The translations under genes were made by a program, and so were the position numbers. A model generated the notes under the pieces. It ran no database searches. It saw only the letters and a program-made list of their open reading frames with translations, and had not been told where the DNA came from. Shown here piece by piece: positions 98 to 25,590 of a stretch of DNA of 25,590 bases; the stretch's first letter is position 1; every line of letters starts with the position of its first letter. The DNA lies in IMG/VR virus record IMGVR_UViG_3300044911_001625, positions 1-25,590 of that record, one strand, 5' to 3'. Source of the stretch: a virus.

Positions 98-1078
98 ATG
101 TTCCGTCGGTCCGGTCCTGCCACGCTCGGGGAGTATGCCCGCGAATACGGGCTCCTTCGGGACGTTCGCCCCGAGACTCTCCGCCAGTATCAGATCGCCG
201 CCGCCGCCTTCGAGAGATGGGCCGGCGCCGCCGTGCCGCTCGAGCAGCTCGACGAGCGGAGCGTCTCGGAATTCCTCCGCGACTACTCCGGCCAGGTCGC
301 CGCGTCGACGGTTCGGAGCAAACGGAACCAGATCCTCGCCCTCTGGCGGGCGGCCGCCGAGGACGGATTCTGTGATCCCCCGACCCGCCGGGTCCGGGCC
401 GCCCGGGTCCCGGTCGCCCCCGTCGAGGCCTGGGAGCGGTCGGAGGTCGAGCAGCTCCTCGAGGCCGCGGCCCGGCTCCCCCGCCGCCACCACTGCGGCC
501 TCCGGCGGTCGGTTTGGTTCGACCTCGCGATCCGTGTCGCCTGGGATTCGGGCCTCCGATGGGGAGACCTGGTCGCCCTTCCGGTCGCCGCGATCCGGCC
601 CGACGGGACGGCCTCGGTCGTCCAGAGCAAAACCGGCCGGCCGGCCGTGTTCCGCCTCGCGCCGGGGACGATGGAGGCCCTGCGGGCCAGCCTGGCGGCC
701 TGCCCCAGGGCGATCGTCTGCCCGTGGCCGGCCAGCCACGAGACATTCCTCGCCCAGGTTCGCCGGCTCGTCAAGAAGGCCGGGATCCGGGCGGGGACCT
801 GGAAATTCATCCGCCGGGGCTCGGGGACCGACGTCGAGGTCCAGAGGGGCGGCGCCGGTCATCTCCATCTCGGGAACACCCGGGCCGTCTTCGACCGCCA
901 CTACGGGAGCCAGGCGATCATCGGCCGGGCGACCCCGGCTCCCCGCGAGCTGCTCGTCGAGGCCCTCGCCCGACGGCCGGTCACGCGGTCTCCCGCTCCC
1001 TGCGCGGATGCACGCCCGCCAGCCCCACGAATTGCTCGAGCCGAGGCCAGAACCCCACCACCGCAAGCAGCGGGTTGA
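98..1078 (+). CDS. int: Tyrosine recombinase / phage integrase
   Basis: Site-specific recombinase expected to integrate and excise the element. Residues about 8-100 look like an N-terminal SAM-like DNA-binding domain, and about 110-290 like the catalytic domain. Visible catalytic positions are Arg154 in SGLRWGDL, Lys178 in QSKTGR, Arg239 in KFIRR and the nucleophile Tyr269 in FDRHYG. Two usual histidines are replaced: the HxxR box reads KFIR (Lys236), and the later His/Trp position reads Asn260 in HLGNT. The ATG at 98 has no better in-frame start just upstream. It is the only plus-strand gene and its last ~98 bases overlap the desaturase gene tail to tail; the last ~35 residues, beyond Tyr269, are low-complexity Ala/Pro/Arg and may be dispensable. 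Its position at the edge of the minus-strand block suggests an attachment site lies nearby, but none could be identified. Confidence 0.88.
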   Translation: MFRRSGPATLGEYAREYGLLRDVRPETLRQYQIAAAAFERWAGAAVPLEQLDERSVSEFLRDYSGQVAASTVRSKRNQILALWRAAAEDGFCDPPTRRVRAARVPVAPVEAWERSEVEQLLEAAARLPRRHHCGLRRSVWFDLAIRVAWDSGLRWGDLVALPVAAIRPDGTASVVQSKTGRPAVFRLAPGTMEALRASLAACPRAIVCPWPASHETFLAQVRRLVKKAGIRAGTWKFIRRGSGTDVEVQRGGAGHLHLGNTRAVFDRHYGSQAIIGRATPAPRELLVEALARRPVTRSPAPCADARPPAPRIARAEARTPPPQAAG

Positions 1079-1505
1079 GCCAGTCCGACATCACGCAAAA
1101 ATTCGTAGCGAACGGCGATTGATGATGGGCGGCGTGCCCGTCTGGCGACGACAGCAGGCCGATCAACTGGAGCCCCCGTATTGGGCGTGAGCATCTCTGG
1201 TGCGCCCAGCCGTGAACCTCGTTCGCCTGGGTCGCGAACGCCGCCGCCAGGGCGAGCCAGTTCTGCCCAGCCGCCAGGGCGACGATCGCGACCGCGGCAG
1301 CGGGCAAGATCGTCGTCCAGTTGCGCCGCCAGTAGTCGCCGGCGAGGAACGCCCGGGGCTCGGAGTGGTGCCGGATGTTCGGCGCGACGACATGCGTGCC
1401 CAGGATCGGCCACGCCGGGTCGCCGTATCGGTCCTCCCACCAGTGAACGACGCCCGCCGCGAAGTCGGCGGCGAGCCACGCGGAGAGGGCGTAGAGCAGA
1501 ATCAA
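981..1505 (-). CDS. PEDS1/CarF/Kua-like membrane lipid desaturase
   Basis: A 174-residue homologue of the lipid desaturase domain family (TMEM189/Kua; bacterial CarF; human PEDS1), whose studied members make the vinyl-ether bond of plasmalogens. The histidine signature is complete to the eye: His21 in HWWEDRYGDP, His38 in GTHVVAPN, His46-His47 in RHHSEPRAF, His98 and His102 in NEVHGWAHQ, His124/127/128 in HAAHH, then TNFCVMSDWLNP. Hydrophobic segments at about 1-20 and 64-92 would anchor it in the membrane. It is shorter than CarF or PEDS1 (about 270-280 residues), mainly through a missing N-terminal extension. The start is TTG: GGAG lies seven bases upstream and no better codon is in frame. 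It is the last gene of the leftward block, 13 bases after a small membrane protein gene, and its 3' end overlaps int. Family assignment is strong; substrate is inferred. Confidence 0.87.
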   Translation of the reverse strand: MILLYALSAWLAADFAAGVVHWWEDRYGDPAWPILGTHVVAPNIRHHSEPRAFLAGDYWRRNWTTILPAAAVAIVALAAGQNWLALAAAFATQANEVHGWAHQRCSRPIRGLQLIGLLSSPDGHAAHHQSPFATNFCVMSDWLNPLLAVVGFWPRLEQFVGLAGVHPRRERETA

Positions 1506-1518
1506 GGCACGACTCCAG

Positions 1519-1662
1519 TCAGCGGGCCGCCAGGTAGAGCCCCGCGTTCGCGAACGCGTAGCCCAGGTAGGCGATCGCGAGGCCCGTCTTCCCGTGGTAG
1601 ACGAGGTCGGCCGCGACGACGATGTAGATCACGCCCGTGACGGCGATCAGGAATGGGCTCAC
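1519..1662 (-). CDS. Small membrane protein (47 aa)
   Basis: A 47-residue protein beginning GTG (VSPFLIAVTG), almost wholly hydrophobic and able to form one long or two short transmembrane helices around the polar centre VYHGKTG. The GTG overlaps the stop of the preceding gene as GTGA, so translational coupling is likely. The pattern of an N-terminal helix, a short basic turn and a C-terminal LGYAFANAGLYLA segment resembles small membrane proteins of unknown function in environmental phages. It directly precedes the desaturase and could help its membrane placement, but that is a guess from position only. Confidence 0.7.
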   Translation of the reverse strand: MSPFLIAVTGVIYIVVAADLVYHGKTGLAIAYLGYAFANAGLYLAAR

Positions 1663-2120
1663 GGTATGGCCTCGACTTCGGCCAGACATGCCGCGTATCC
1701 CGCGAGGTCGACCGGCGTGTCGGAGGATTTCGCCTTGCCCTGGTGCCGGGCGAGCTTGTCTAGGATCATGATCTGCGCCCAGTCGGCGATCGTCAGCGGC
1801 GCGAGCAGTTTGTGCCCGAAGATCGCATTCACGGCCGCGACGGTCTTCGCGAAGTGTTCCGCCGGCGGGCCGTAGGTCGATCGCCGCTGGCGCACCGTCC
1901 GCGTCGCCGTGTCGAGCAGTTCCTCCGCCTTCGTCAGCGGCTCGGCCCCGTAGCCCGGGTGATTCGGGTCCTTCATCCTTCGCTCCCTTCTGATCGTGGT
2001 CACGGCGTGAAACAGCCAGGACGCTAACGTCCCCGAGGTGCCAGTCCAGGCCCCTTGGAACCGCCGGGCCAGCCGCTCGGCCTCGTCGAGGTCCGCGTCG
2101 GTGAGGATGTACCCGGTCAC
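1659..2120 (-). CDS. DUF6378-like phage protein
   Basis: Residues about 49-153 match the pattern of DUF6378 phage proteins: a TYGPPAEHFAKT segment, a hydrophobic stretch with LTIADWAQIMILDKLAR, and a C-terminal VDLAGYAACLAEVE. The function of this family is unknown to me. The GTG start at 2120 overlaps the upstream stop as GTGA, giving 153 residues. An internal ATG at 1976 is preceded by a strong Shine-Dalgarno stretch (AAGGGAG), so a shorter 105-residue form covering just the domain may also, or instead, be made. The first ~48 residues (VTGYILTDADLDEAERLARR...) are an acidic/basic helix of unknown role. A longer frame to 2291 exists but lies within the phosphoesterase gene and is not favoured. 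Confidence 0.75.
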   Translation of the reverse strand: MTGYILTDADLDEAERLARRFQGAWTGTSGTLASWLFHAVTTIRRERRMKDPNHPGYGAEPLTKAEELLDTATRTVRQRRSTYGPPAEHFAKTVAAVNAIFGHKLLAPLTIADWAQIMILDKLARHQGKAKSSDTPVDLAGYAACLAEVEAIP

Positions 2121-3115
2121 GAGGAGCGGACCCTCCCGCCGGCCGTGATCCGCAGGTTCTCGACGTCGAACTGCTGGTCGGCGTGAACCGTGACCACCGC
2201 GAACCCGTGGTTGTATTTCGAGAAACGCGAGTATTCCGGCCGGAGATCGCAGAGGCAGCCGGTACTCCAACAGAAGACCTCGCTCCCCCACATGTCGGGC
2301 TCGCAGTGTGCGCTGGTCCGGTGGCCGTGCCCCTCGAGGACCGTGTGATGGAGCCGGAGGAATGCACCGCGGGCCTGGTTGACCGGCGAGCTGATCCCTT
2401 TCCCCTTCTCGTGACCGTGGAGGACCGGCAGTTTCCCGAGCATGATCGGCCGCTTGTCCTCGACGAGTGTCATCCCGTGCCGCTCGATGTGGAGCCAGGC
2501 ACCGAGGCCCATCTCCGGCTCGGCCGAGACCTCGGGGGCGTGTTGCCAGAGCCAGTGTTTCCAGCGCTCCTCGTGGTTCCCGGTCTTGAATACGATCGGG
2601 ATCTTTTGGAACGACTGCCGCAGCCAGCCGAGCATTTCGCGGATCTGCGCCAGCTCGCCGGGGAGGTCGCGCTTTCTCGGATCCTTGATCCAGCGGCTGA
2701 TCGTGTAGAAGTCCGCGATGTCGCCATTCAGGACGAGCGCGTCGATCCCGGTCTCGCCCAGGTGATCGACCGCGGCCTCGAGCGCGACCGGATCGTGATA
2801 GGGAACGTGAATGTCAGAGAGGATCCCGACCTTCCCGACGACGCCCAGGTCGTGCGTTGTCCACGGCTCGACCTTCGACGGCGGCATCGCGAACCGGTGT
2901 CCAGGCTGGCGGGCCGGCCGCGGGGCCGTGGCGTATTTCTTGTCGTTCTTGCGGCCGCTCTGGCCGAACTGCGCCCGAATGCGAGTCCTCGCCGCCTCGA
3001 GGCCGAGAGCGCCCCTACTTTCGGCGACGAGTAGCCTTGCCAGCCCGCGCGCGGAGTGGTTTGGATTCTCGGCCACGAGCCGTTTTACGACCGCTGTCAT
3101 CGGATCGCCTGCCAT
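2117..3115 (-). CDS. Calcineurin-like metallophosphoesterase
   Basis: A 332-residue protein with an N-terminal helical region (about 5-55, possibly helix-turn-helix-like), a basic linker, and a metallophosphoesterase domain from about 90. Metal-binding motifs are all present in order: Asp101 and His103 in SDIHVPYHD, Asp132 in NGDIAD, Asn180-His181 in KTGNHEER, His233/His235 in LHGHE, and His263/His265 in GHGH. The family hydrolyses phosphomono- or diesters with two metal ions; phage members are often next to structural genes and their substrates are mostly unknown. The ATG at 3115 follows GGAGG at suitable spacing. The gene overlaps the preceding small gene by 101 bases and the next gene by four. 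Function class is secure, substrate is not. Confidence 0.87.
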   Translation of the reverse strand: MAGDPMTAVVKRLVAENPNHSARGLARLLVAESRGALGLEAARTRIRAQFGQSGRKNDKKYATAPRPARQPGHRFAMPPSKVEPWTTHDLGVVGKVGILSDIHVPYHDPVALEAAVDHLGETGIDALVLNGDIADFYTISRWIKDPRKRDLPGELAQIREMLGWLRQSFQKIPIVFKTGNHEERWKHWLWQHAPEVSAEPEMGLGAWLHIERHGMTLVEDKRPIMLGKLPVLHGHEKGKGISSPVNQARGAFLRLHHTVLEGHGHRTSAHCEPDMWGSEVFCWSTGCLCDLRPEYSRFSKYNHGFAVVTVHADQQFDVENLRITAGGRVRSS

Positions 3116-4787: not shown

Positions 4788-5699
4788 TCAGGGCCCCGGC
4801 GGGACAGGGACGATCGACGGCGTGCCGAACTTCGCACCGTAGGCCGTCGCCGGGTAGACGTTGAACGTCAGCGCGTCGGGGGCCTGGCCGGCCGCCTTCG
4901 CGACACCGTTCGCCAGCGCGACCGGTTGCTTGACGGCCTTCCCGTCCTTGCCGGTGATCGTCCGCCGGTTGGTGCCGCTCGTCGACGCGTTGCCGTTGGC
5001 GTCAGCCTTCTCCTGGAATCCGAGATCCCACGGCTTGAGCTGCCAGCCGTCGGGATCGAACCGGAACTCCCATTTCGTCTCGACGTACTTCTTGACCTCG
5101 CCTTCCTCGTCGCCCTCGTCGAGCTTCTGCGACTGCCGCTCGTCGGCCGACTTCAACGAGACCTTCCATTTGCCCGCGGCCTCGCCGTCCCAGACGTCGG
5201 AGTTCACGCTCCCGGAGTAGGTGTCCCTGTCCGCCATCCAGGTATCGGCCGCGTAGAACTTCGTCAGCGTCCAGCCGCGCTCCTCGCGTTCGCGGGACAG
5301 GCCCTCGATCGGGTCTCCGGCCGAGTTGACGATCAACGCACCGTTTCGATCGCGGAACGCCGGCACGCTCGTCGTGCCGCCGGCGGCCTGCCAGAAGTCC
5401 TCGGGGATCCCGGTCGTGGCGTTGATCTTCTTCCCGTTCGGCGGGACGTAGAACTGGACGGTCACGATCCAGAGCATCCCGACGTCGTCGGCCAGGCTGA
5501 CGTCGAACTCCATCGCCTTGCACGCGGGGAAGTCCCAGTGCGGCAGGCCGTAGCCCTGGCCGGTGGAGTTGGCGATGACGATCTTCGAGGTCCGCGGGTT
5601 GTCGACGCGGACCCGCCACCTCTCGGTCGGCCGGTAGGATTCGCCGAGCTTCCCGGAGAGTCCCCCGGAGGGGAGCCAGTCCGCCTTCACGACAGCCAT
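4788..5699 (-). CDS. Putative tail-tip/baseplate protein after tape measure
   Basis: A 303-residue protein with no recognised catalytic motif. It is rich in aromatics and beta-type alternation (GKWKVSLKSADERQ, KWEFRFDPDGWQLKPWDLGF) and ends in a Pro-rich tail (VPVPPGP). In siphoviruses the position directly after the tape measure is usually taken by the distal tail or a tail-tip protein, so that is the most likely role. Its ATG shares one base with the tape measure stop (TGATG), which fixes the start at 5699; the longer open frame to 6311 is antisense-like sequence within the tape measure gene. Confidence 0.65.
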   Translation of the reverse strand: MAVVKADWLPSGGLSGKLGESYRPTERWRVRVDNPRTSKIVIANSTGQGYGLPHWDFPACKAMEFDVSLADDVGMLWIVTVQFYVPPNGKKINATTGIPEDFWQAAGGTTSVPAFRDRNGALIVNSAGDPIEGLSREREERGWTLTKFYAADTWMADRDTYSGSVNSDVWDGEAAGKWKVSLKSADERQSQKLDEGDEEGEVKKYVETKWEFRFDPDGWQLKPWDLGFQEKADANGNASTSGTNRRTITGKDGKAVKQPVALANGVAKAAGQAPDALTFNVYPATAYGAKFGTPSIVPVPPGP

Positions 5700-7237
5700 C
5701 AGCCACCCTCCAGACCGAACGGGTACTCGTCGTCGGCGGCGGCCGCGACATGGAGGTCGCGGATCTGCTCGAGGACGGAGAGCTGCTTCTCCTGGACGTC
5801 CTCGCCGCCGCCGCGCATCAGCCGGAACATCTCCGCGATGCCCTCCTGCGATCGCGAGTCGATGCCCCGCAGGGCCTGATCGTTCCGCAGCTCTGCCGCC
5901 GGGGCCGCCGCCGGGGGCGTCGCCCTCGAGGCCGTGTCCACCTGGGCGGCCGACTGCTCGGCCCGGGCGATCACCCCGTCGATGGCCGCCGTCAGCGGGC
6001 CGGCGACGGCGGCCCCGACGGGGGCGGCCGACTCGCCGAACGCCCGCTCGAATCCGGCCTTCGAGTCGGCGACGTTCTGGTCGATGCCCTTCGTGATCTC
6101 CGCGTTGAATGCCTTCGCCCCTTCGACGTAGGCGTCGAGCCCGGAAGTGTCGAGACCGAGGAACCGCCCGCCGGCCCGGAGGAGCCGCGCGATCCCCTCG
6201 ACGACCGCCCCGAACCCGAGGACGACAACACCGAGCCCGGCCTCCGCGGCGTTGAACACGCCCGACAGGAAGCCGGCGATCCGATTCATCGCGTCGGCCA
6301 CGGATCCCCACTGCCCGCCCACCTGGGAGACGTACTCCCAGACGCTCGACAGGTTGGAGATCAGATAGTCGCCGATCCCGGCGAGGAACCGCGCCCCTTG
6401 AAGGATCCCGTCGCCGATCGCCTGGCCGAGGTTCGCGCCGCCCATCGAGCCGACCAGGTTCGTGAACGTGTCGGCGACCTCCTTCACGGCTGGGGACAGG
6501 TAGGCGACGACCTGGTTCACGACGCCCTCGATCGCCTTGCCTGCCATCGTGAACGCGTCGTTCATCGCCTCGACGTCCTGCCCCTGGGCATTCGTCAGGG
6601 TGAGCCCGAGCCGCTCGGCCTGCTCGCGGGCCTGGGCGATCCCCTCGGCCCCCTGAGAGAACAGGGGAAGCAGCTCGACGCCCGACTTGCCGAAGATCTG
6701 GACGGCCGCGGCCGCCCGCTGGGCCTCGGTCGGGAGCTTGGCGATTGCCGCGGCGATCGCGTCGAACCGCTCCGAGGCCGACAGGCCCCCGAGCTGGTCC
6801 ACGGACAGGCCGAGCCCGGAGAAAGCGGCCTGGGCCACCTTCGATCCCTGCGAGGCCTTCACGAACGCGATGTCGGCCTTCGTCGCGGCCTTCGCGATCG
6901 TGTCCATGCCGACGCCTGCCAGGTCGCCGGCGAGGGCGAGGCCGGAGAATTCCCCGAGGGTCATGCCGAGCCTCGCCGCGAGTTTGCTCTGCTGGTCGAT
7001 CACCTCGGCCTGGGCCTGCCCGTAGGAGACCATCGAAGACACGCCGCGGGAGACAGCCCCGGCTATCGACCCGAAGAGCTGGGCCCCCTGGATCGCGACG
7101 AGCGAGGTCATGCCGCTCCGGAGGCTGCCGACAGCGGCCTCCATCTTGGCCATGCTGGTCACGGCTTGATTCACGCCCGAGACGAGACCGCCCGTCGAGG
7201 CCGTGAATACTGCGCGTACCTTGCCGATGTCCGCCAT
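5699..7237 (-). CDS. Tail tape measure protein
   Basis: A 512-residue protein that sets tail length and guides DNA ejection. The N-terminal region is an Ala/Gly-rich helical domain; residues 75-195 carry the typical tape-measure domain, ending in the hallmark IFGKSGVELLPLFSQ (182-195). Hydrophobic segments lie at about 215-300 and 340-370. Using the known rough scale of 1.5 angstrom per residue, the tail would be about 75 nm, if the protein is not processed. The first 67 bases overlap the end of the frameshifted chaperone ORF, the usual arrangement. Placement after the chaperone pair makes this assignment firm. Confidence 0.93.
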   Translation of the reverse strand: MADIGKVRAVFTASTGGLVSGVNQAVTSMAKMEAAVGSLRSGMTSLVAIQGAQLFGSIAGAVSRGVSSMVSYGQAQAEVIDQQSKLAARLGMTLGEFSGLALAGDLAGVGMDTIAKAATKADIAFVKASQGSKVAQAAFSGLGLSVDQLGGLSASERFDAIAAAIAKLPTEAQRAAAAVQIFGKSGVELLPLFSQGAEGIAQAREQAERLGLTLTNAQGQDVEAMNDAFTMAGKAIEGVVNQVVAYLSPAVKEVADTFTNLVGSMGGANLGQAIGDGILQGARFLAGIGDYLISNLSSVWEYVSQVGGQWGSVADAMNRIAGFLSGVFNAAEAGLGVVVLGFGAVVEGIARLLRAGGRFLGLDTSGLDAYVEGAKAFNAEITKGIDQNVADSKAGFERAFGESAAPVGAAVAGPLTAAIDGVIARAEQSAAQVDTASRATPPAAAPAAELRNDQALRGIDSRSQEGIAEMFRLMRGGGEDVQEKQLSVLEQIRDLHVAAAADDEYPFGLEGG

Positions 7238-11327: not shown

Positions 11328-12539
11328 TCAGGTCGCCGCCTTCGCCAGCCGGGCCACGAACTCGGGGCCGTGATTGCTCACGCCCACCCGGGTATTCGCG
11401 ACGTAGAGGACCTGGCGGCTGCGGACGAGCAGCTCGCGGGCGACGTTGATCTCCAGGCCGGAGTCCTTGACCCCGACGGCGGTCGCCATCGAGAAGTCTC
11501 CGAACAGGGCGAGCGTGGTCGCCGGCAGCCCCTTCACCAGGTACACCGGGGCACCGAAGATCGTCGGCACGACTTTCCCGCCACCCACGACCATCGTCGT
11601 CTGCTGCGCGGCCCAGATCTTCATCAGGTCGACGTAACCGGCCTTCGAGCAGACGAAGGAGCCGGTCCCCATGATCGACTCGTCGACCTTGCCGACCAGG
11701 TCGGCGAGGTTGGTGACGGAGGTCGCGGAGTTGAGTGCCACGGTGATCGTGTTCCCGCCGGCGACGGCGCCCGCGAGGCCGGTGATCGCCGGGTTCGACG
11801 CGTTGCCCCCGAGCCAGACCGAGTCGATCCAGCGGGCGAGGCCGTGCGAGAACCGATCGACGAGCAGGCCGGCGACGTCCACCGGGGAATCCTCGAGCAG
11901 GGCCCGCGAGACGGGCACCGAGGCCCCGCCTTCGTAGAGGACCAGCTCGGCGCCGCTGGAGTTGACGTCCTGATCCGTGAACGCCACGTTTTCGGCGGCG
12001 AACCCGAACGTGACGTCGCCCGACTTCGGGATCGACAGCTTCTGGCCGGCCGGCCGGAAGATGCTCGCGAGTTGGAGGCCGACCGACTGGTACTGGAGCC
12101 GGTTCACGATCGCGTTGTAGAGTTCCGTGGTCACCCAGTCGTCGCCGTAACCGTCGACGGTTTCGCCCATCGCACGCTTCGCGACACCGGACAGCCCGCA
12201 GAGGTAGGAGCCGACCGCGGCGGCGATCTTCACCGACCGGAAGGCCCGCACGCCGGCGCGGATGTCGACCTTGTCCGTCTCCTGGTCCGTGATCTCCGGC
12301 TTCTTCGGCTCGGAGTCGCTCGACCGGACAGCCCGCAGCGCGGCGAGCCGCTCATCGAGGGCCCGCTCGCCCTGCGCCTCGGAGGCGATCTCGCCGGCCC
12401 GAGTCGAGAGGGCCGCGAGCCGATCCTCGATCCGCTTCTTGTCGCCCTCGTCGGCCGGGGTCACGGAGCGGAGATCGTTGATCTCGTTCTCGATGCTGAC
12501 GGTCTCGTCCTGGAGTCGAGCGAGCTTGGGGCTGGGCAT
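11328..12539 (-). CDS. HK97-fold major capsid protein
   Basis: A 403-residue protein with an N-terminal delta/scaffold region of charged coiled coil (about 1-90, VSIENEINDLRS and repeated heptads), a hinge near 95-115, and an HK97-like shell domain to the end, with typical elements TTELYNAIVNRL (E-loop/N-arm region), PVSRALLEDSP, FSHGLARWIDSVWLGGN, and the C-terminal KDSGLEINVARELLVRSRQVLYVANTRVG. Removal of the N-terminal region by the upstream prohead protease is expected. The ATG at 12539 follows AAGGA and defines the start; the longer frame to 12668 covers a 101-base non-coding gap with a conserved regulatory element. Capsid call is strong from pattern and neighbours. Confidence 0.93.
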   Translation of the reverse strand: MPSPKLARLQDETVSIENEINDLRSVTPADEGDKKRIEDRLAALSTRAGEIASEAQGERALDERLAALRAVRSSDSEPKKPEITDQETDKVDIRAGVRAFRSVKIAAAVGSYLCGLSGVAKRAMGETVDGYGDDWVTTELYNAIVNRLQYQSVGLQLASIFRPAGQKLSIPKSGDVTFGFAAENVAFTDQDVNSSGAELVLYEGGASVPVSRALLEDSPVDVAGLLVDRFSHGLARWIDSVWLGGNASNPAITGLAGAVAGGNTITVALNSATSVTNLADLVGKVDESIMGTGSFVCSKAGYVDLMKIWAAQQTTMVVGGGKVVPTIFGAPVYLVKGLPATTLALFGDFSMATAVGVKDSGLEINVARELLVRSRQVLYVANTRVGVSNHGPEFVARLAKAAT

Positions 12540-12605
12540 GGTTCGCGTCCTTGCGTGCGGGGTGTTCGGGCCGACGCTCGCGAGAATGCCAGCCGGAGCC
12601 ACCCT

Positions 12606-12617
12606 CGGAAAAGTTTC
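12606..12617 (-). promoter_or_regulatory. GAAACTTTNCCG element, copy 1 (before capsid)
   Basis: Minus-strand GAAACTTTTCCG in the 101-base gap in front of the major capsid gene; 66 bases separate it from the start codon. Eleven of twelve bases are shared with two other gaps. The GAAACTTT half resembles -35 elements of ECF-type sigma factors (GGAACTT). No convincing -10 was identified, so promoter function is a hypothesis. Confidence 0.6.
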
Positions 12618-12620
12618 GCG

Positions 12621-12637
12621 CGTCCTACGGTAGGACG
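12621..12637. promoter_or_regulatory. 17-base palindrome before the capsid gene
   Basis: CGTCCTAC-G-GTAGGACG is a perfect inverted repeat with a one-base centre, located between the stop of the Cys-rich gene and regulatory element copy 1. It could be a protein binding site or, as RNA, a six-pair hairpin with a five-base loop acting as a weak terminator for the upstream block. Neither is proven. Confidence 0.5.
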
Positions 12638-12640
12638 ATT

Positions 12641-12958
12641 TCAGGGAGGGCACTTGCCGCCGGCGCACTTCCCCGCCTTACAGGTGCAGGCCGGCGAGCA
12701 TTCGCAGGGGATCTCGATCCGGCCGTCGGGCTTGATCTTGCCGTTCGTGCATCCGCATTTGCATCCGGTCGGCTTCGGCTTCGGGCCGGGGGCCGGCGGC
12801 GGAGCCGGGGGCCCCGGCGGCGCGGCATCGAGCGCGAGGCTCGCCCGGGCGGCGGCGACCGCGGCGGCCGCCTTCGGGGCCTCGAGGTCGACAGCGGCCG
12901 GGTCGGCCGACAGCCAGACGAGCCAGGCGATCAGGGAACGCCAGAGGTTCGCGATCAC
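12641..12958 (-). CDS. Cys-rich, Pro-rich secreted or membrane-anchored small protein
   Basis: A 105-residue protein with an N-terminal hydrophobic segment (about 2-17, MIANLWRSLIAWLVWL), an Ala-rich stretch, a Pro-rich linker at 46-64, and a C-terminal domain with nine cysteines: C66, C68, C70 in GCKCGCTNG, C85 and C87 in PCEC, C91 and C93 in ACTC, C98 and C103. In an exported protein these would form disulfides; in a cytoplasmic one they could bind metal. The DGRIEIPCEC segment seems a recurrent motif in planctomycete phage-like loci, but no function is known to me. It overlaps the previous gene by four bases and is the last gene of the membrane/secretory block. Confidence 0.72.
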   Translation of the reverse strand: MIANLWRSLIAWLVWLSADPAAVDLEAPKAAAAVAAARASLALDAAPPGPPAPPPAPGPKPKPTGCKCGCTNGKIKPDGRIEIPCECSPACTCKAGKCAGGKCPP

Positions 12959-13212
12959 TTGGGGGCCTCCTCAGTGAATGCCCGCCAGACCCAGATCGCG
13001 GCGGCCGCGCCGGCCACCGACCACAGGATCCCGGCCGGCCGGTAGCCCCCGCCGCCGACCGCGGCCTCGAGCAGGCCGCCGACGACGGAGCCGGCCACGC
13101 CGCAACCGATAGTCTCGATCCCAGTCGCGCGGCCGTCGGGCCGGATCGGCAACAGCCAATTCCCGATCGAGCCGGCGATCCAGCCAAACACGATCCATCC
13201 GATCAGCGACAT
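12955..13212 (-). CDS. GlsB/YeaQ/YmgE-type small membrane protein
   Basis: An 85-residue protein with three predicted membrane segments (about 3-22, 33-55, 60-78) and the family pattern SLIGWIVFGWIAGSIGNWLLP, then a Gly-rich helix GCGVAGSVVGGLL. This is the transglycosylase-associated / GlsB family found in many bacteria, with unclear function. In this block of small membrane proteins it could serve as a holin, but there is no direct evidence. Its stop overlaps the next start (ATGA) and its start follows the previous stop directly. Confidence 0.72.
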   Translation of the reverse strand: MSLIGWIVFGWIAGSIGNWLLPIRPDGRATGIETIGCGVAGSVVGGLLEAAVGGGGYRPAGILWSVAGAAAAIWVWRAFTEEAPK

Positions 13213-13497
13213 CTACCACCCCCTTCCGTGTTCGAGAACTCGATGCCCTTCGTCGTCGACGCGTGCCCTCACGATCTGCTGCTCGGCCCCGACGGCCTGC
13301 GGGCCTTCGGCCACGAGCGCGACCCAGAGGAACGTTTTCGCGATCCGCGCGATCACCCGCAGGACCGGCCGGTCGGGCCGGGGCGGGCCGAAGGGCGTCG
13401 GCGGGAAGGGCCCGGAGGCCGAGGCCGAGAACCAGAGCAGGAACAGGACCGCGGCCGCCGCGAAGATCGCGTGCCGCTTGTTTAGGGTGACCGTCAT
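13213..13497 (-). CDS. Small membrane protein
   Basis: A 94-residue protein with an N-terminal hydrophobic segment (about 10-26, AIFAAAAVLFLLWFSAS), a Pro-rich linker (GPFPPTPFGPPRPDRP), a second weak hydrophobic helix (IARIAKTFLWVALVA) and a polar C-terminal tail. It could span the membrane once or twice. Start at ATG 13497 overlaps the stop of the protease gene by four bases, indicating coupled translation. No family recognised. Confidence 0.65.
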   Translation of the reverse strand: MTVTLNKRHAIFAAAAVLFLLWFSASASGPFPPTPFGPPRPDRPVLRVIARIAKTFLWVALVAEGPQAVGAEQQIVRARVDDEGHRVLEHGRGW

Positions 13498-14585
13498 CGA
13501 CGAGCCTCCGGCGCGGGGGTGAGCCAATTCCCGTGGTGCAGGTCGCGCCAGCCAAAGCCGCTGATCGACCCGACCGCGAACGAGTCCTCCTGGGCGAGCA
13601 TCCGCTCGACGACACGCCGCTCGACCCAGAACGAGCCGTCGGGCATGTCTGCCGGCCACTTCGGGCCGGTGATCCAATTCGGGCCCCAGGAGTTCAGGCA
13701 GAGCAGGGCGTCGGAGGGCGAGCCGTTCCGCTGGTAGCGGACGGCCACGAAGACCATTTGGTGGGCCCACTGCCCTGACGCCGCGGCGTAGCCCTGCGCG
13801 TTGCGGGTGTTCGTGAATCCCTGCATCGAGGCGACCGGCACCGGGAACCCGGCCTCGATCGCGGCGGCGGCCTCGGCCCAGGTCGTGACGAGGGCGATGT
13901 GGGTCGCGGGGTGTCTCTTCGCGACCGCGTCCAGCCGGCCGCCGTCGCCCTTGCCGCCGCAGCCGTAGGCGCCCCACTGCTTCGCCCGGTCGGCGGAGTA
14001 GGCCCGGAGGTCGAGGTCGCCGATCTGCTCGCGGTAGACGACGCCCCAGTCGCGGACCCAGCGGGCCGCGGCCGCGCCGTAGGAGCCGTCGCTCCAGCCG
14101 CCGACAGGAGCGGCGCCATCGCCCGACCGGCCGCGGGCCTCGACCCGCGAGCCGCCGTAGATCGCCTCGGTGGATGGGAACGGGGGCGGGTTCGCGAGCC
14201 GGCCGGTTTCCCAGTCGACGCACTGGGCGACGTAGACCCCGTGCGCCCAGCCGAAGGAAACACAGTCTCCGATGCCCTGCCGCTCGACGATCCACGGCCG
14301 GCCGTAGAGGGCCTGGTGGGCTTTGTAGGCCGACCGGTACAGGAACGTGTCGACGCCCTCGGCCTTCGCCACGGTCTCGGCCCCGGCCCGGGCGAACGTC
14401 GGCTCCGGCAGCTCGGCCAAGAACGCGCGGACGCCGTCGGGATCCGGCCGCCACCCGAACCGGCCGTCGCCTTCACCGATCCAGCCGGCCGCGCGGGGGC
14501 CGCCCGTCAGGCTCGCGACGACAGCCGCGACCGCCAGGCCGAGGAGCAGGGAGACGGCGAGAATCCGGATCCTATCGTGCCGCAT
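13494..14585 (-). CDS. Papain-like (C1-type) cysteine protease, exported or membrane-anchored
   Basis: A 363-residue protein with an N-terminal signal or anchor segment (about 7-25, RILAVSLLLGLAVAAVVA), a spacer, and a domain from about 95 with the papain triad in order: Gln103 and Cys108 in RQGIGDCVSFGWA, His275 in GQWAHQMVFVAV, and Asn298 in CLNSWGPNW. The NSWG motif is particularly typical of C1 peptidases. Gln-to-Cys spacing is five rather than the usual six. The enzyme would cleave proteins outside the cytoplasm. It lies between a two-helix membrane protein and a small membrane protein, overlapping both. Candidate roles are envelope degradation for lysis, release from a protein-rich cell surface, or modification of the host envelope. 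Confidence 0.83.
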   Translation of the reverse strand: MRHDRIRILAVSLLLGLAVAAVVASLTGGPRAAGWIGEGDGRFGWRPDPDGVRAFLAELPEPTFARAGAETVAKAEGVDTFLYRSAYKAHQALYGRPWIVERQGIGDCVSFGWAHGVYVAQCVDWETGRLANPPPFPSTEAIYGGSRVEARGRSGDGAAPVGGWSDGSYGAAAARWVRDWGVVYREQIGDLDLRAYSADRAKQWGAYGCGGKGDGGRLDAVAKRHPATHIALVTTWAEAAAAIEAGFPVPVASMQGFTNTRNAQGYAAASGQWAHQMVFVAVRYQRNGSPSDALLCLNSWGPNWITGPKWPADMPDGSFWVERRVVERMLAQEDSFAVGSISGFGWRDLHHGNWLTPAPEARR

Positions 14586-15512: not shown

Positions 15513-15664
15513 CGGCTGCGCCTCCAAATGGAATCCGCGGGCACGACCTGGCGGCATCGTGCGCGGCAGGACTGGCACTCGACGTACTGGACCTGGCGGT
15601 CGCCGGCCCGCTTCGATGACGTCGCGCGGGCGCGGCCGCCGCACTTGGGGCATTTACCCGGCAT
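15509..15664 (-). CDS. Short zinc-ribbon protein
   Basis: A 51-residue protein, MPGKCPKCGG..., with Cys5-X2-Cys8 and Cys30-X2-Cys33 (plus Cys37) separated by a basic stretch, which is a typical zinc ribbon. Phage Ogr/Delta-type activators and small RNA-binding ribbons have this form, so it may regulate late genes, but the short size allows nothing more certain. It overlaps the protease-HAD gene by 11 bases and the next gene by four. A longer frame to 15877 exists but lies within the HAD coding region. Confidence 0.66.
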   Translation of the reverse strand: MPGKCPKCGGRARATSSKRAGDRQVQYVECQSCRARCRQVVPADSIWRRSR

Positions 15665-16607
15665 AGAGGCGCATCCTCGCGGCAGCGGCGGCGGCGACAG
15701 CCCGGGCGGCGGCGAGGCTCGACACGCGGAGACCGCGGGTCTCCTCGGGCTCCGGCACGGTCTCGGGCTTGTCGTCGATCCAGATGTCGGGCGAGAGGCC
15801 GGCGTCGGCTGCGGCCGACCGTTTGCGCCGGTCCGGCCCGGCAAGAACGACGCCGGCCAAGTCGCCAAAATGTTCACCGAACGCCAGCCGCAGTTCCTCG
15901 CGGTTCTGTTCGTTGTCCTCGCGGCGCGTCACGCAACAGACGCGGTTCCCGCGGGCGAGGGCCTCGGTCATGAAACTCCGCCACAGGCCGGGGGCGGCCG
16001 TGAACGTCTGGTCGAAGTCGAGCGAGATCAGCAGGCCCTGGGCCGTGCCGGGGGCGGCCGCGGCGGCGCGGGCGGACCGCCAGAGGTCGAGGGACCGGGC
16101 CGACAGGCCCGACGACGGATAGGCCGCGCGAGTGACTGGTGACAGATCGTAGAGGCCGGAAGCCTCGTTGATCGTCCTCGTGACGTTGCCTCGCCCATCC
16201 TCTTCCCAGCTCTCGCCCTTCTCGTTCACCGTGAACGCGAACGAGGATCCGAAAATCGTCTTCGAGCGGATCAGCGTCAGGACCTCGGCGGCCGTCGGAG
16301 TCGCGACCGGATCGGCCTCATAGGCCAGGCCCTTGTCGGTCTTCTCGATCCGGAGCGTGCCGTTCGTGGTCCGCGCGAGAATCTTGGAGTCGTCGTGGTT
16401 GAAGAGCAGCGGGACGTCCAGCCGCTTCTTCGCCAGAACCTTGTCGAACGCCGTCGGCGCGAACTTCTCGCGGAAGCCGCCCAGGTCCGAGGAGAGCGAG
16501 TCCCACGGCGGCGCGATGCCGCGGATCTTCGGTGCCTCGCCGTCCCGCTGTTCGACCGTCAGTTCCCCGCCTTCGGCGATCGGCAGATAGCGGCGTTCAG
16601 GTTGCAT
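15654..16607 (-). CDS. Prohead protease fused to a HAD-type phosphatase domain
   Basis: A 317-residue protein with two domains. Residues about 1-175 are an HK97-family prohead protease: GIAPPWDSLSSDLGGFREKF, PLLFNHDDSKILART with His71, the GSSFAF segment with Ser121/Ser122, and GLYDLSPVTRAAYP. Residues about 190-290 are a HAD-like hydrolase: LDFDQT (Asp197-X-Asp199, motif I), CCVTRRED (Thr227, motif II), KRSAAADAG (basic motif III) and DIWIDDKPE (Asp278-Asp279, motif IV). The protease processes the capsid protein; the HAD part would dephosphorylate an unknown substrate. No ATG, GTG or TTG codon occurs in frame between residues 163 and 199, so a separate HAD start near the joint is unlikely. 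Start overlaps the portal stop by 11 bases. Confidence 0.88.
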   Translation of the reverse strand: MQPERRYLPIAEGGELTVEQRDGEAPKIRGIAPPWDSLSSDLGGFREKFAPTAFDKVLAKKRLDVPLLFNHDDSKILARTTNGTLRIEKTDKGLAYEADPVATPTAAEVLTLIRSKTIFGSSFAFTVNEKGESWEEDGRGNVTRTINEASGLYDLSPVTRAAYPSSGLSARSLDLWRSARAAAAAPGTAQGLLISLDFDQTFTAAPGLWRSFMTEALARGNRVCCVTRREDNEQNREELRLAFGEHFGDLAGVVLAGPDRRKRSAAADAGLSPDIWIDDKPETVPEPEETRGLRVSSLAAARAVAAAAAARMRLYAG

Positions 16608-18159
16608 CGTTCTGGCCTCCTGGCTGGGCGGGGTTGGTGCCGTCGACCATCTGCGACGCGAGGGCCTCGGTGATCGTCGGGAAGGCCGCGGTGATCAGGG
16701 CGACGGCCGCGTCCTTGTCGATCGTGCCGGCGGCGATCTGGTTCAGGACATCGAGGAGCGCCGTGACCTGGGCGCCGTTGAGGGCGGTCGAGGCCAGGGC
16801 CGCGCCGGAGGCTGCGGCCGCGAGCGGGTCGGTCTCCGAGTCCACGGTCGTGTCGGCCGGCGGGGTCTCGTCATCCGGCGACGCGTCTGCCGGCGTGTCG
16901 TCGGTCGTGTCGCTCGCCGGCGGCTCGCCCCCGGCGGCCCCGGCCTGGGCGGCGGCAGCGGCGAGCGTCGAGAACCCGAGCTGGACGAACGTCTCGTTCG
17001 CGGCCGGGTCCTCGAGGAGCGGCAGATCCTCGCGGTCGCGGATCTCGTTCGGCGTGATCGCGCCCATGTTCCAGAGCGTCTGGTAGAGCGCCGACCGGGC
17101 CGCGGTGTCCCCGCGGAGAAGCCCGCGGTTGTCGAGCCGCGCGTAGATGTCCTCGCCGTAAACCGGCTGGAGGAGCATGTCCACCGGCCCCTCCATCCGC
17201 TTCTGCCAGGGCAGCAGGCACCAGACCTGGGCGGAAAGATGCTCCTGTTCGACGGTCGAATATTTCGCCATCCGGGCGTCGCCGAGGAGCGTCGAGGGAA
17301 CGCCCCAGCAGCGGCAGACGTCGGGGAGGATCGCGTCCCTCAACTCCTGGAACTGGTTCGCCTCCATCGAATTTGATTCGATCGGGACCAACTTCGTCTT
17401 TCGCGGCAGGACGGCCGCGCTGCCGCGGTTGGCGGCGCCGCCGTAGAGCGTCCGGATCTGCTCGCGGAGGGCGTCGACGGCCTCTTGCGGGATCTTCTCC
17501 TGAGTCTCCAGGACAACGTCGGGCCGCGCGGAGTTCTTCCAGAAACTCGTCGCCGCGGTGTCGAGTTCACGGGCGAGGGCGATCGACGTCCCGCAGAGTT
17601 CAGCCGGCGCCATGCCGATCGTGCCATTGTTCGACAGCCATCGCCAGTGCATCACCTCCGAGGCCGGCACCGGTTCCCAAACGCCGCGGTCGTTCCAGAA
17701 CTTGTAGGTGAGCGAGTAGTCGGAAAGACGCTCGACCTTGACCCGGCTCGGGTGCATCGGCCGCAGCTCGGAACAGAAGCCGCGCGGCCCCGGCAGGACG
17801 CGGCAGTAGGCGTTTCCGTGGAGGGCCGTCCAGTAGCTGACCAACTGCCAGAAGTCGTAGGCCGACTGCCACGGGTTCGGCCGCTTCCGCAGCGTGTAGG
17901 AGCAGGGGAGGTTTGCGTCCTCCTTCCGTCCGTCTGGGAGCGTCCGCATCACCTGGAGCGGCATGACCGCCACGGCTTGCGAGATCCAGCGGACGACCCC
18001 GAGGATCGACGACACGCGGATCGCGGTCTCGGGGCCGATGTCGCGCGGCGACAGGCTCAGGCTGATGTCGGCCAGGCTCTGCCGCAGGTTGACGAGCGTC
18101 CCGCGGATCGGCCGCGCGGCGGTCTTTCGGCGCGGGGCGGCGGCAGGCTTGCGGGGCAT
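16597..18159 (-). CDS. Portal protein
   Basis: A 520-residue portal subunit, which forms the ring for DNA entry. The N-terminal region is basic (RKPAAAPRRKTAARP). The core has typical elements: SSILGVVRWISQAVAVMPLQVM, YDFWQLVSYWTALHGNAYCRV, and HWRWLSNNGTIGMAPAELC; then the ring-forming QFQELRDAILPDVCRCWGVPSTLLGD and the MGAITPNEIRDREDLP segment common in HK97-type portals. It ends in an acidic, Thr/Pro-rich linker and a small helical domain, LNGAQVTALLDVLNQIAAGTID, seen in many portal proteins. Start at ATG 18159 follows GAGGG; the longer frame to 18396 overlaps terL. Confidence 0.93.
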   Translation of the reverse strand: MPRKPAAAPRRKTAARPIRGTLVNLRQSLADISLSLSPRDIGPETAIRVSSILGVVRWISQAVAVMPLQVMRTLPDGRKEDANLPCSYTLRKRPNPWQSAYDFWQLVSYWTALHGNAYCRVLPGPRGFCSELRPMHPSRVKVERLSDYSLTYKFWNDRGVWEPVPASEVMHWRWLSNNGTIGMAPAELCGTSIALARELDTAATSFWKNSARPDVVLETQEKIPQEAVDALREQIRTLYGGAANRGSAAVLPRKTKLVPIESNSMEANQFQELRDAILPDVCRCWGVPSTLLGDARMAKYSTVEQEHLSAQVWCLLPWQKRMEGPVDMLLQPVYGEDIYARLDNRGLLRGDTAARSALYQTLWNMGAITPNEIRDREDLPLLEDPAANETFVQLGFSTLAAAAAQAGAAGGEPPASDTTDDTPADASPDDETPPADTTVDSETDPLAAAASGAALASTALNGAQVTALLDVLNQIAAGTIDKDAAVALITAAFPTITEALASQMVDGTNPAQPGGQNDAT

Positions 18160-18226
18160 CGGCAGACCCTCGGTCGGCAGCGCTCCACGCCCTGCCTGCC
18201 GCCAGTGTCCGCCCCCCGGGTTTGCC

Positions 18227-18238
18227 CGGTAAAGTTTC
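18227..18238 (-). promoter_or_regulatory. GAAACTTTNCCG element, copy 2 (before portal)
   Basis: Minus-strand GAAACTTTACCG overlapping the terL stop codon (TGA forms part of the element) in the 77-base gap before the portal gene. It lies 67 bases before the start codon, almost the same distance as copy 1 before the capsid gene. Confidence 0.6.
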
Positions 18239-19856
18239 AGAGAACGTGGATCTTCCAGTCGTCCGCGCTGCCCGTTTCCGCGTCGTCGGTCGAGGCGAGC
18301 GCGAGGGCGTTGACGAGCGCCGCGATCCCGTCGATCTTCTCGTTCGACTTCGCCTTGTCCGGCTTGATCATGCCCGTGGGGTCCGTGTAGACGCACACGT
18401 TGTTAGCGTTGAACGCCGCGACCGGGTTCGCTCCGTGCCGGAGCCGGCCCTCGACGACCAGGGCCTCGAGTAGTTTGCACGGCGCGTTGAGGTAGGCCGT
18501 TCGCTGGGCGACCGACTTCACTTCGATGCCTTCCCGCTGGAGGAGTGTCTCCAGGGCCCCGGCCTGCCAGGGATCGACCCCGACGCCGCGGATCTCGTGC
18601 GACTCCCCGTAGGCGATGATGTCGCGGGCGACAGCCTCATGGTCGAGCCGGTGGCCGTCGGTCACGGTCACCCAGCCTTCGCGGATCCAGGTGTCGTAGG
18701 GGATGCCCTCGCGTACCCGGTCGCCGACGGTCTCCGAGGGGACCCAGTATTTCCACTCGACCGAGTAGGAGCCGTCCGCCTCTTTGAACACGAAAGCCGC
18801 GCTCGTCATGTCGAGGTTCGACGCGAGGTCGACACCCACCCAGCAGGGCCGGCCGGGGAGCGGCTCCAGCGGCTCGCGGCCGCACTTCGCCCAGTCGTCG
18901 CCGTGGAAAAAGCGGGAATCGGCCTGTTGCCAGACGTTCAAGGAGTATCGGAGGAATTTCGACATCTTCCGCGGATCGGTCGTCGCGTCCTGGTAGTCGG
19001 CCGCGAATTCCGATTCGGGAAACGCGACGCCCATCGACGGATTCGCTTTCCGCCAGACGGCGGGATCGGAGAAGTCGTCCTCCGGATCGGCCGCGTAGAT
19101 CAGCCCGTAGAACGTCGGGTTTGCGGCCGGGGTCTTCATCACCAGCTCGGAGTCCTTCCACCACTGCCAGCCGATGCCGTTCCGGTCCTCGCCGGCCGTC
19201 GAGATCGACATCACGACGCTATTCGGCGTTCCGCGGATCGCGTAGACGAGGGCATCGACCAGAGCCGGCGAGCGGAAACTGTGGATCTCGTCGAGGATGA
19301 CCGAGCCGTTCAGGCCTTCCTGTTTCCGCCACTCGCTCGACAGACAGCGGATCTCGTTCCCGTGCTGCCGGTTCCGGATCACGCTTTTGTAGTCGATCAC
19401 CTCGAGCAGCTTCGAGAGTTGCGGCGAGGCCTCGATCACGGCGGCCGCCATGCGGAACATCGTCCGCGCCTGCTCGCGATCGTTCGCGGCCAGGAAGACG
19501 TCGGCGATCGGGAAATGCGAAGTCGCCATGTAGGCCGCGAGCTGCGACATGAGCGAACTCTTCCGGTTCTTCTTCGGAACCCAGATCCCGGCGCGACGGT
19601 AGCGGAGCCGGCCGGTCGGCCCCTTCCACCCGAAGATCGGCGCGATGACGCGGTCGCGTTGCCAGTCGAGGACCTTGATCGGCTGCGGTTTTCCGTCGTC
19701 GCTCGGGTGCCGACAGAATCGCTCGATGAATTCGGCCGGCCGCGCGGCGGCCTCGGCGTCGAACGTGAACCCGGCGACGTACTCCGGCCGCCTCTTCGGA
19801 TCAGCCGCCCGTGAACGTCCGGAGGGCGCGGGCTTCTTCGTCGTCTTCTTCGCCAT
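18237..19856 (-). CDS. terL: Terminase large subunit
   Basis: A 539-residue packaging motor ATPase and nuclease. A Walker A-like VPKKNRKSS (93-101), a Walker B SVILDE (185-190) and a coupling STAGEDRNG segment (219-227) mark the ATPase. The nuclease domain has Asp343 in VGVDLAS, Asp428 in VGVDPWQAG and Asp509 in EKIDGIAALVNAL. Length and order match the HK97/lambdoid-type TerL family (P27-linked). The gene overlaps terS by 56 bases and ends on the conserved GAAACTTT element. The ATG at 19856 begins a Lys-rich leader. Confidence 0.95.
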   Translation of the reverse strand: MAKKTTKKPAPSGRSRAADPKRRPEYVAGFTFDAEAAARPAEFIERFCRHPSDDGKPQPIKVLDWQRDRVIAPIFGWKGPTGRLRYRRAGIWVPKKNRKSSLMSQLAAYMATSHFPIADVFLAANDREQARTMFRMAAAVIEASPQLSKLLEVIDYKSVIRNRQHGNEIRCLSSEWRKQEGLNGSVILDEIHSFRSPALVDALVYAIRGTPNSVVMSISTAGEDRNGIGWQWWKDSELVMKTPAANPTFYGLIYAADPEDDFSDPAVWRKANPSMGVAFPESEFAADYQDATTDPRKMSKFLRYSLNVWQQADSRFFHGDDWAKCGREPLEPLPGRPCWVGVDLASNLDMTSAAFVFKEADGSYSVEWKYWVPSETVGDRVREGIPYDTWIREGWVTVTDGHRLDHEAVARDIIAYGESHEIRGVGVDPWQAGALETLLQREGIEVKSVAQRTAYLNAPCKLLEALVVEGRLRHGANPVAAFNANNVCVYTDPTGMIKPDKAKSNEKIDGIAALVNALALASTDDAETGSADDWKIHVL

Positions 19857-21884: not shown

Positions 21885-22841
21885 CTATGAGAGGGCGAGG
21901 ACCAGGCCGAGCGAGACACCGCCGGAGCCCGTGTTCCCCCGTGGGATCGTGATGTCGAGGACCGCGGCAGAGCTGCTGCCGCTGTTCGTGACCGAGGCGT
22001 TCGACCCTGCCGCTCCGGTCGTCACCGTGCCGATGGCGATCGTGGCGGCGGCCCCGGCGGGGCCGGTTGCCCCGGCCGAGCCGGCGGGTCCGGTCTCGCC
22101 CGCGGCCCCGGCGGGGCCGGTGATCGCCGACAGGGCGACGATGTTCGTCCAGGTCGAGCCGCCGACGTAACGCCACTGGATGTGCGTCCCGGAGGCCTGG
22201 AACTCAACGTCGCCTCCGTCGGTCCCTTCGTCTCCCCTGGGGATCGTCAGGTTCAGCGTCTGGGCCGGGGCGGTACCCGTGATCGTGGCCGAGGCCGACG
22301 AGCCGGCGGCCCCCGTGGTCACCGTGCCGATCGTGAGCGTGTTCGCGGGTCCGGCGGCGCCGGTTGCCCCTTGCGGCCCAGTGATCGCGGAGAGGGCAAC
22401 GAGGTTCGTCCAGGTCGAGCCGCCGACCGGTCGCCATTGAACGTGCGTGGCGGTCGTCTGTAGCTCGAGCGTCGCGCCCGTCGCGCCGGTGGCCCCGGCG
22501 GGGCCGGTGATCGACGCGAGCGTGGCGAGATCCGACCAGGTCGAGCCGCCGACGACGCGCCACTGGATGTGCGTCGCGGTCGTCTGTAGCTCGAGGTTCG
22601 GTCCGGCCGCCCCGGCGGGCCCGGCCGGGCCCTGGGGAAGCGTGAGGTTCAGCGTCTGGTTTGGGGCGGCGCCCGTGATCGTGGCGGCGGCGGTGCCCGT
22701 CGCGACCGTGCCGATCGCGAGCGTGTTCGCAGGGCCGGTGTTTCCGGTGGGCCCGCGGTCGCCAGTCTGCGCGACGGTCACGCTCGCGGTCGTGCCGGAG
22801 ACTGCGACCGTCACGGGGCTCCCGGTGATCGTCACGCTCAT
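21885..22841 (-). CDS. Collagen-like tail fibre with alternating repeat modules
   Basis: A 318-residue fibre protein. The N terminus (MSVTITGSPVTVAVSG) is beta-rich and may attach to the tail. Then follow collagen-like Gly-X-Y runs (about 29-37, 71-81, 114-123, 155-166, 243-265) separated by two module types: B (about 33 residues, NTLAIGTV...LNLTLPQG) at 39-71, 167-203 and 267-302, and A (about 31 residues, THIQWR.VGGSTW..L) at 82-113, 124-154 and 211-242. Order is B-A-A-B-A-B. Collagen-like triplets make trimeric stalks in many phage fibres; the modules probably are spacer domains. The start overlaps the previous stop by four bases. Confidence 0.86.
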   Translation of the reverse strand: MSVTITGSPVTVAVSGTTASVTVAQTGDRGPTGNTGPANTLAIGTVATGTAAATITGAAPNQTLNLTLPQGPAGPAGAAGPNLELQTTATHIQWRVVGGSTWSDLATLASITGPAGATGATGATLELQTTATHVQWRPVGGSTWTNLVALSAITGPQGATGAAGPANTLTIGTVTTGAAGSSASATITGTAPAQTLNLTIPRGDEGTDGGDVEFQASGTHIQWRYVGGSTWTNIVALSAITGPAGAAGETGPAGSAGATGPAGAAATIAIGTVTTGAAGSNASVTNSGSSSAAVLDITIPRGNTGSGGVSLGLVLALS

Positions 22842-23197
22842 GGCGAGGTCGGCGACACGACGCCGGAGAGGTAGGTCCTGGTCACCGTTCCGGGCGACAC
22901 GCCGCGGAAAAACCAGCGGTAGCTCTTGGTCGGCGACAGGGCTGCGGTCTGCACTTCGGTGAGCGACAGGACGAGCTGCCCGAGGGCGGCGTTCGTCACC
23001 TCGATCGCGAAGGTCGCCGCGGTCGCGCCCTGCGAGGCGATCGCGACGCCGTTCTGGTAGCTGGGCGAAACCTCATAGACGAGGGCGGTCCAGGAGAACC
23101 CGGTTCCGTCGATCGACAGGTCGATCCCCAGCGTGAACTCGTCGCCCGGGACGAACGCCAGCGTTAGGTCGGCCGGTAATGCGGAGAACGTGGGCAT
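22838..23197 (-). CDS. BppU-like / fibre-associated small protein, copy 2
   Basis: A 119-residue protein with beta-sandwich pattern: LPADLTLAFVPGDEFTLGIDLSID at 7-30, a FSWTALVYEV strand and a C-terminal SYRWFFRGVSPGTVTRTYLSG. It is clearly related by eye to the 106-residue protein at 25131-25451 (both have LPx-L-LAF..GDEF...ID-SI and a Trp strand). The GDEF pattern recalls the N-terminal domain of baseplate upper proteins (BppU). Each copy lies directly before a collagen-like fibre, so it may attach or align the fibre. The gene follows regulatory element copy 3; there is no clear Shine-Dalgarno. Confidence 0.72.
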   Translation of the reverse strand: MPTFSALPADLTLAFVPGDEFTLGIDLSIDGTGFSWTALVYEVSPSYQNGVAIASQGATAATFAIEVTNAALGQLVLSLTEVQTAALSPTKSYRWFFRGVSPGTVTRTYLSGVVSPTSP

Positions 23198-23226
23198 ACG
23201 GAGACCGTAACCGCGGGCCGGAGTGG

Positions 23227-23238
23227 CGGGAAAGTTTC
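23227..23238 (-). promoter_or_regulatory. GAAACTTTNCCG element, copy 3 (before fibre cassette 2)
   Basis: Minus-strand GAAACTTTCCCG overlapping the stop of the chaperone-like gene, in a 39-base gap before the next gene. It is 29 bases from the start codon, shorter than for copies 1 and 2, and that start has no clear Shine-Dalgarno. If it is a -35 element, transcription would begin close to the start codon. Confidence 0.58.
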
Positions 23239-23647: not shown

Positions 23648-23649
23648 GG

Positions 23650-25451: not shown

Positions 25452-25460
25452 AGCCTGCGA

Positions 25461-25590
25461 TTATCCCCCGTCTGCCGGGTCGGCAAAGTCTGGCGACGGT
25501 CGCCAGGTCGGGTTCCACTTCTCGCGGCGCGTCTCCTCGGTCCATCCGGCCTGAACCTCCGCGATCCGCCAGGCGATTTCGGCGTCCGTC
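25461..25590 (-). CDS. C-terminal part of an unidentified protein at the window edge
   Basis: A frame open through the right edge and closed by TAA at 25461-25463. It encodes about 42 residues ending in an amphipathic helix ([22 protein letters not shown]) and a Pro/Asp-rich tail ([17 protein letters not shown]). It is a short distance (nine bases) before the BppU-like gene and so probably belongs to the same leftward operon. Too little remains to say what it does. Confidence 0.6.

Follow-up and report, generated by a model that had tools for sequence, protein, structure and literature searches.

The window analysed here, a whole IMG/VR record of 25,590 bases, carries at 981..1505 on the minus strand a gene for a 174-aa protein that has the full catalytic residue set of the lipid desaturase family PF10520, together with an Asn next to its histidine pair. 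Compared across the available sequences, proteins of this N-type (PN-x-x-HH) appear to form a third branch of PF10520, which would be distinct from PEDS1/CarF and, as far as tested, from FAD4 as well. We propose, with a probability of about 0.6, that the window protein is a small membrane di-iron enzyme, made late and dependent on O2, which would desaturate (less likely hydroxylate) the chains of intact host phospholipids.

The ORF starts with TTG and is preceded by a GGAG-type ribosome site. The first-pass annotation had pointed out this ORF and quoted its histidine motifs, all of which are present in the 174-aa protein. The assignment as a membrane di-iron lipid desaturase gene of the N-type is based on this length, on Pfam, on the residue set, on an AlphaFold2 model and on dN/dS. 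In Pfam-A, the protein matched PF10520 (Lipid_desat) over profile positions 1-174 of 175 with 128.9 bits (E 2.7e-37), the curated score cut-off of this family being 26.4 bits. No homologue was found by PDB searches with the single sequence or with a profile, and the desaturase has no family in PHROGs. The AlphaFold2 model, built from a 35-row alignment, is all helical, with a mean pLDDT of 92.9 and a pTM of 0.87. Among viral predicted structures, it matched the PF10520 protein of Harvfovirus (E 1.6e-5, TM 0.67, 26% identity).

The window is a bona fide tailed phage, since the large terminase subunit TerL (18237..19856, PHROG 9, E 3.9e-134), the portal protein (16597..18396, Pfam PF04860, E 1.8e-73), the S78 prohead protease (15654..16607, Pfam PF04586, E 4.8e-33), the major head protein (11328..12668, PHROG 10, E 9.1e-24) and the tape measure protein (5699..7237, PHROG 8462, E 1.1e-35) are all encoded in it, on the minus strand. 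The proposal of a phage gene with the complete PF10520 metal-binding set is thereby borne out by the Pfam match, the residues and the accompanying phage genes. The minus-strand late set, which also holds a calcineurin-like metallophosphoesterase (2117..3115, Pfam PF00149, PHROG 221), ends in the desaturase, after a DUF6378-domain ORF (1659..2291, minus strand, Pfam PF19905, E 1.4e-15) and, directly upstream of the desaturase, a small hydrophobic membrane protein of 47 aa (1519..1662, minus strand), recognised from sequence and hydropathy and weakly matching an uncharacterised PHROG. A DUF6378 gene, 42-60% identical, is also the upstream neighbour in the nearest relatives of the desaturase (L006-L055). 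On the other side, a tyrosine integrase gene (98..1078, plus strand; PHROG integrase, E 1.4e-19, with a weak Pfam Phage_integrase match below the cut-off) is convergent with the desaturase ORF and overlaps its 3′ end by 98 bases.

A near-identical contig, L063 (99.9% over 9.9 kb), runs on beyond the window start, and the ORFs of this extension resemble, by eye, an excisionase-type HTH protein and a RusA-like resolvase. This would fit a temperate phage of which the window does not include the early region. A 170-bp collagen-like match at the opposite end was not accepted as proof of a circular genome. Collagen-like, Gly-Pro-rich fibre genes occupy 21885-25545, and a related, diverged allele is found at the far end of L063. 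Two further proteins of the head region were noted. One, of 105 aa (12641-12958, between the major head protein gene and the gene at 12955-13212), has a cysteine-rich tail (CKCGC, CECSPACTC, CAGGKC) and no Pfam or PHROG match; the other, of 363 aa (13494-14585), looks by eye like a papain-like cysteine peptidase and has no family match.

The host is probably a planctomycete, as far as can be judged from TerL: its closest match, in a planctomycete genome, is 54% identical (40% for others), against 32% for the best match among 50,697 phage records. This agrees with the host put forward at first. The portal protein and the protease are 50-52% identical to those of the same planctomycete contig. 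In one planctomycete genome, a single 6.53 Mb contig, the N-type gene occurs twice, both times within a prophage and with HNH, terminase and portal genes as neighbours. These prophages, L230 at about 5.087 Mb and L231 at about 4.163 Mb of contig C1, are related, and one of the two is identical to IMG/VR record 2687453341_000004. The same chromosome also has a Phe-type homologue of its own (L229). The cultured Erythrobacter phage vB_EliS-L02 shows that the N-type clade extends to Alphaproteobacteria too.

In mouse PEDS1, eight histidines, 96, 121, 122, 187, 191, 215, 218 and 219, are essential (PMC7149458, PMC8960569, whose residue numbering is used here). They correspond to H21, H46, H47, H98, H102, H124, H127 and H128 of the phage protein, so that after alignment none of the metal-binding histidines, whose absence had been named in the first-pass annotation as telling against its proposal, was missing. 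Spacings are mostly identical, for instance +25 both from H96 to H121 and from H21 to H46, and D25 occupies the place of D100, essential in PEDS1 (PMC8960569); across aligned members this residue is Asp, rarely Glu. Two positions differ within the gap-free stretch of the alignment from H21 to N62: F118 is replaced by N43, and H131 by G56. A PEDS1 F118A mutant keeps 6% activity, and H131, equivalent to CarF H113, is specific to PEDS1/CarF and strongly needed for activity (PMC7149458, PMC8960569).

These differences hold for the whole group. Among 71 aligned proteins, position 43 was Asn in 39 of 39 from the phage clade and in 8 of 8 planctomycete proteins of the N-type; the 23 PEDS1/CarF-like cellular proteins all had Phe there, and 18 of them have the ninth histidine, which no N-type protein has. 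Asn43 was likewise present in 153 of 153 phage-type loci (some contigs being counted twice), in which the eight histidines were invariant except in one truncated row. The H131-equivalent position was Gly, Gln, Lys, Thr or others in these loci, never His or Arg.

A PMSF tree was built from 71 rows, with cellular members sampled from Planctomycetota and Chlamydiota, CarF, PEDS1 and FAD4 themselves not being among the rows. The phage proteins formed one clade (support 99/94) and the planctomycete PEDS1/CarF-like genes another (100/97). The phage clade takes in the protein of vB_EliS-L02 and one gene from a Rhabdochlamydiaceae MAG. The latter (L062, 9767-10525) has chromosomal surroundings, and its N-type product clusters with that of the Erythrobacter phage, which suggests transfer between phage and cell.

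Scans of IMG/VR yielded 54, 147 and finally 193 confirmed stretches as the queries were widened, that is at least 193 in total, and the N-type branch comprises 33 lineages at 75% identity among the IMG/VR stretches. A scan of the same type over 84,980 species genomes produced six N-type loci, on five planctomycete MAG contigs and one chlamydial one. One of the six, L059, read over its full length, is clearly phage DNA, another, L058, matches an IMG/VR record in length and desaturase coordinates, and L062 is chromosomal. In these motif-limited scans, the N-type branch is almost absent from cellular genomes; as they hinge on short motifs such as VHWWEDR, the virus-to-cell ratio is of lower quality, while its direction is strong. 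PEDS1-type phage genes were sought in IMG/VR with the patterns I-x-x-F-x-x-HH and TNQ-x-H-x-W, and with the PF10520 protein of a huge phage as query; none was confirmed by either route. Plasmids gave no match to phage, cellular N-type or PEDS1-like queries. PF10520 genes were found in about 9% of 392 sampled Planctomycetota genomes, many of them PEDS1/CarF-like and with the ninth histidine (L119-L139).

How might such a protein act? The substrates of both characterised PF10520 members are intact phospholipids (PMC8960569, PMC9131029). We suppose that the desaturase would be made along with the late genes, given its place in the gene order, and would be located in the host inner membrane, where its eight histidines would bind two irons. 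With electrons from a host redox carrier, O2 would be activated and a double bond or, with lower probability, a hydroxyl put near the glycerol end of an intact host phospholipid chain. Membrane properties could be altered in this way at the stage of assembly or lysis, or else in lysogenic cells.

A more specific possibility is an acyl desaturase like plant FAD4, which would act on phosphatidylglycerol and place a trans double bond close to the carboxyl end of an acyl chain. FAD4 and the phage protein both have the eight-His set without the ninth histidine (PMC7149458, PMC9131029). Moreover, plant FAD4 needs the thiol peroxidase Prx Q (PMC8375268), and thioredoxin-like CXXC proteins, secreted or membrane-anchored, are encoded directly upstream of the desaturase in some relatives (L079 8933-9862; L084 8917-9840; L089 9488-9973; L049 1730-2215; L099 3109-3615). 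Their position is suggestive, and such a protein is a possible redox partner. These neighbours are nevertheless confined to a few lineages, with a best Pfam match of E 0.037, and all phage members have Asn at the place of Phe118, a residue that is reportedly both necessary and conserved among CarF/TMEM189 homologues. We regard a FAD4-like reaction as rather unlikely.

No partner gene constant across lineages, redox partner included, was found around the desaturase. In other phages it stands in packaging or head-tail clusters: it adjoins HNH, terminase and portal genes in L087 and L106, and a small-terminase-like gene in L181, lies between phoH and the portal gene in the Erythrobacter phage, close to phoH in L076/L083, and between a secreted trypsin-like protease gene and connector genes in L059 and L104. 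The trypsin-like protease, which has an apparent signal peptide, is directly upstream of the desaturase in L059 (8759-9922) and in the relatives L086, L087, L101, L102, L104 and L106, which make up a group of phages of planctomycetes.

The enzyme could also be a chain hydroxylase or another di-iron lipid oxygenase rather than a desaturase. Scs7p is a di-metal membrane fatty-acid 2-hydroxylase, and its structure (4zr1) was the sole match of the model above background among solved structures, with Z 6.4 over 142 residues, the next, unrelated one having Z 2.3. The likeness is moderate, the Foldseek E-value being just 0.9, and it also counts in favour of our main proposal of a membrane di-iron enzyme. 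FA_hydroxylase (PF04116) also came up as a weak second Pfam score (E 1.5e-4), but the PF10520 score is more than 100 bits higher, and the two characterised enzymes of that family are desaturases. An oxygenase of this kind is thus, to our mind, an unlikely reading.

The first-pass annotation had named the protein PEDS1/CarF-like, and as such it would be a true plasmanyl desaturase that, its residue differences notwithstanding, converts ether lipids of the host into vinyl-ether plasmalogens. It shares with these enzymes the Pfam family, the eight histidines and the essential aspartate. In NCBIfam it comes closest to the CarF model NF045946, and some Planctomycetota, the likely hosts, do have PEDS1/CarF-like genes with the ninth histidine. 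The label itself did not hold up, however. The NCBIfam match reached 89.6 bits, against an equivalog cut-off of 500, the protein lies outside the clade of planctomycete PEDS1/CarF-like genes, and N43 and G56 stand where normal PEDS1 activity needs F118 and H131 (PMC8960569, PMC7149458). In addition, alphaproteobacterial homologues which likewise have no ninth histidine failed to replace CarF (PMC9131029). On the tested features, the window gene would not belong to PEDS1/CarF, and we consider a plasmanyl desaturase quite unlikely. Desaturation of intact phospholipid chains by an N-type enzyme is the reading that we keep.

Comparison with other phages showed that the gene is exchanged between them. 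With blastn against the nearest non-identical phages, the sole match was the desaturase (969-1496, 82-84%). In a 47.5 kb relative, G008, protein identity was 80% for the desaturase, and 37% for TerL, 38% for the portal protein, 36% for the protease, 25% for the major head protein and 48% for the DUF6378 protein. More generally, backbone proteins are 23-38% identical to those of the nearest other phages, and in L069/G558, with a desaturase at 80%, a counterpart of the window's TerL was undetectable. The dN/dS ratio among desaturase copies was 0.14-0.19, for dS of 0.54-1.4; this purifying selection shows that the desaturase is a real gene. Likeness of the DNA restricted to the desaturase, divergent backbones and a low dN/dS together show that the gene moved between phage backbones and stayed functional. 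That it be a cellular contaminant or a decaying hitch-hiker, functionless in the phage, is very improbable: it does lie towards one end of the record, by the integrase, a usual place for cargo genes, but it is present in at least 193 viral stretches, lies inside structural gene clusters in many phages, has invariant catalytic residues under purifying selection and two intact prophage copies in one chromosome, and frequent frameshifts or lost histidines are absent from the 153 loci.

Enzymes that modify intact membrane lipids are known from few phages. The subfamily described here, its catalytic set complete, is present in 33 phage lineages and moves between phages of unrelated backbone, so that a repeated benefit is implied. 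A larger proposal, which we hold as tentative, is that N-type PF10520 proteins are a class owned largely by viruses and passed among tailed phages that are unrelated and infect Planctomycetota and Alphaproteobacteria. They would catalyse a lipid reaction for which cells offer no known example, desaturation or oxygenation at a new position of an intact phospholipid, and serve late remodelling of the host membrane. PF10520 would thus gain a third branch, and the Asn by the histidine pair offers a handle on what separates plasmalogen synthesis from other chemistry. Bench work in a natural host is possible because one complete planctomycete chromosome holds both N-type prophages and the chromosomal Phe-type homologue.

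Among known systems, PEDS1/TMEM189 and CarF are PF10520 membrane proteins which, like the phage protein, have eight histidines in matching order and at near-identical spacing, and the essential Asp. The phage protein differs by the Asn and Gly replacing Phe118 and His131, by its separate clade and by its size, 174 aa compared to 281 for M. xanthus CarF. The PEDS1/CarF-like genes of Planctomycetota extend the range of that type beyond the reported myxobacteria, Leptospira and Alphaproteobacteria. Plant FAD4, a phosphatidylglycerol delta-3-trans desaturase also of PF10520, resembles the phage protein in its eight-His motif and the absence of the ninth histidine, a likeness drawn from published descriptions of FAD4; it differs in that the phage protein has Asn43 for the conserved Phe, and Arg, common in FAD4 at the H131 position, occurs in 0 of 153 phage-type loci.

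Turning to viruses, no paper on phage PF10520 enzymes was found in the open-access literature. The initial statement that no phage member had been described stands for annotation, but a huge phage and the cultured vB_EliS-L02 do encode unlabelled members. The Erythrobacter phage protein UIS25202.1 is in the same clade as the window protein, with the Asn and the eight histidines, is 42% identical to it (tblastn) and is encoded close to phoH and portal genes. Unlike the window phage, vB_EliS-L02 is a lytic Cbk-like siphovirus of 150 kb; UIS25202.1 is annotated only as 'hypothetical', and the text of the published paper on this phage contains neither 'desaturase' nor 'lipid'. The Harvfovirus 'Lipid desaturase domain-containing protein' (A0A3G5A308) is also virus-encoded and has the same predicted fold, but belongs to a giant virus of eukaryotes. 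Finally, the huge phage LR756511.1 (595 kb) encodes, at about 54.6 kb (L149 5983-6441), a PF10520 protein with eight histidines which, unlike that of the window, keeps the equivalents of Phe118 and His131 and groups with the PEDS1/CarF-like clade. Judged by these residues, if a plasmalogen desaturase is to be sought in a phage, this gene would be a better choice than that of the window.
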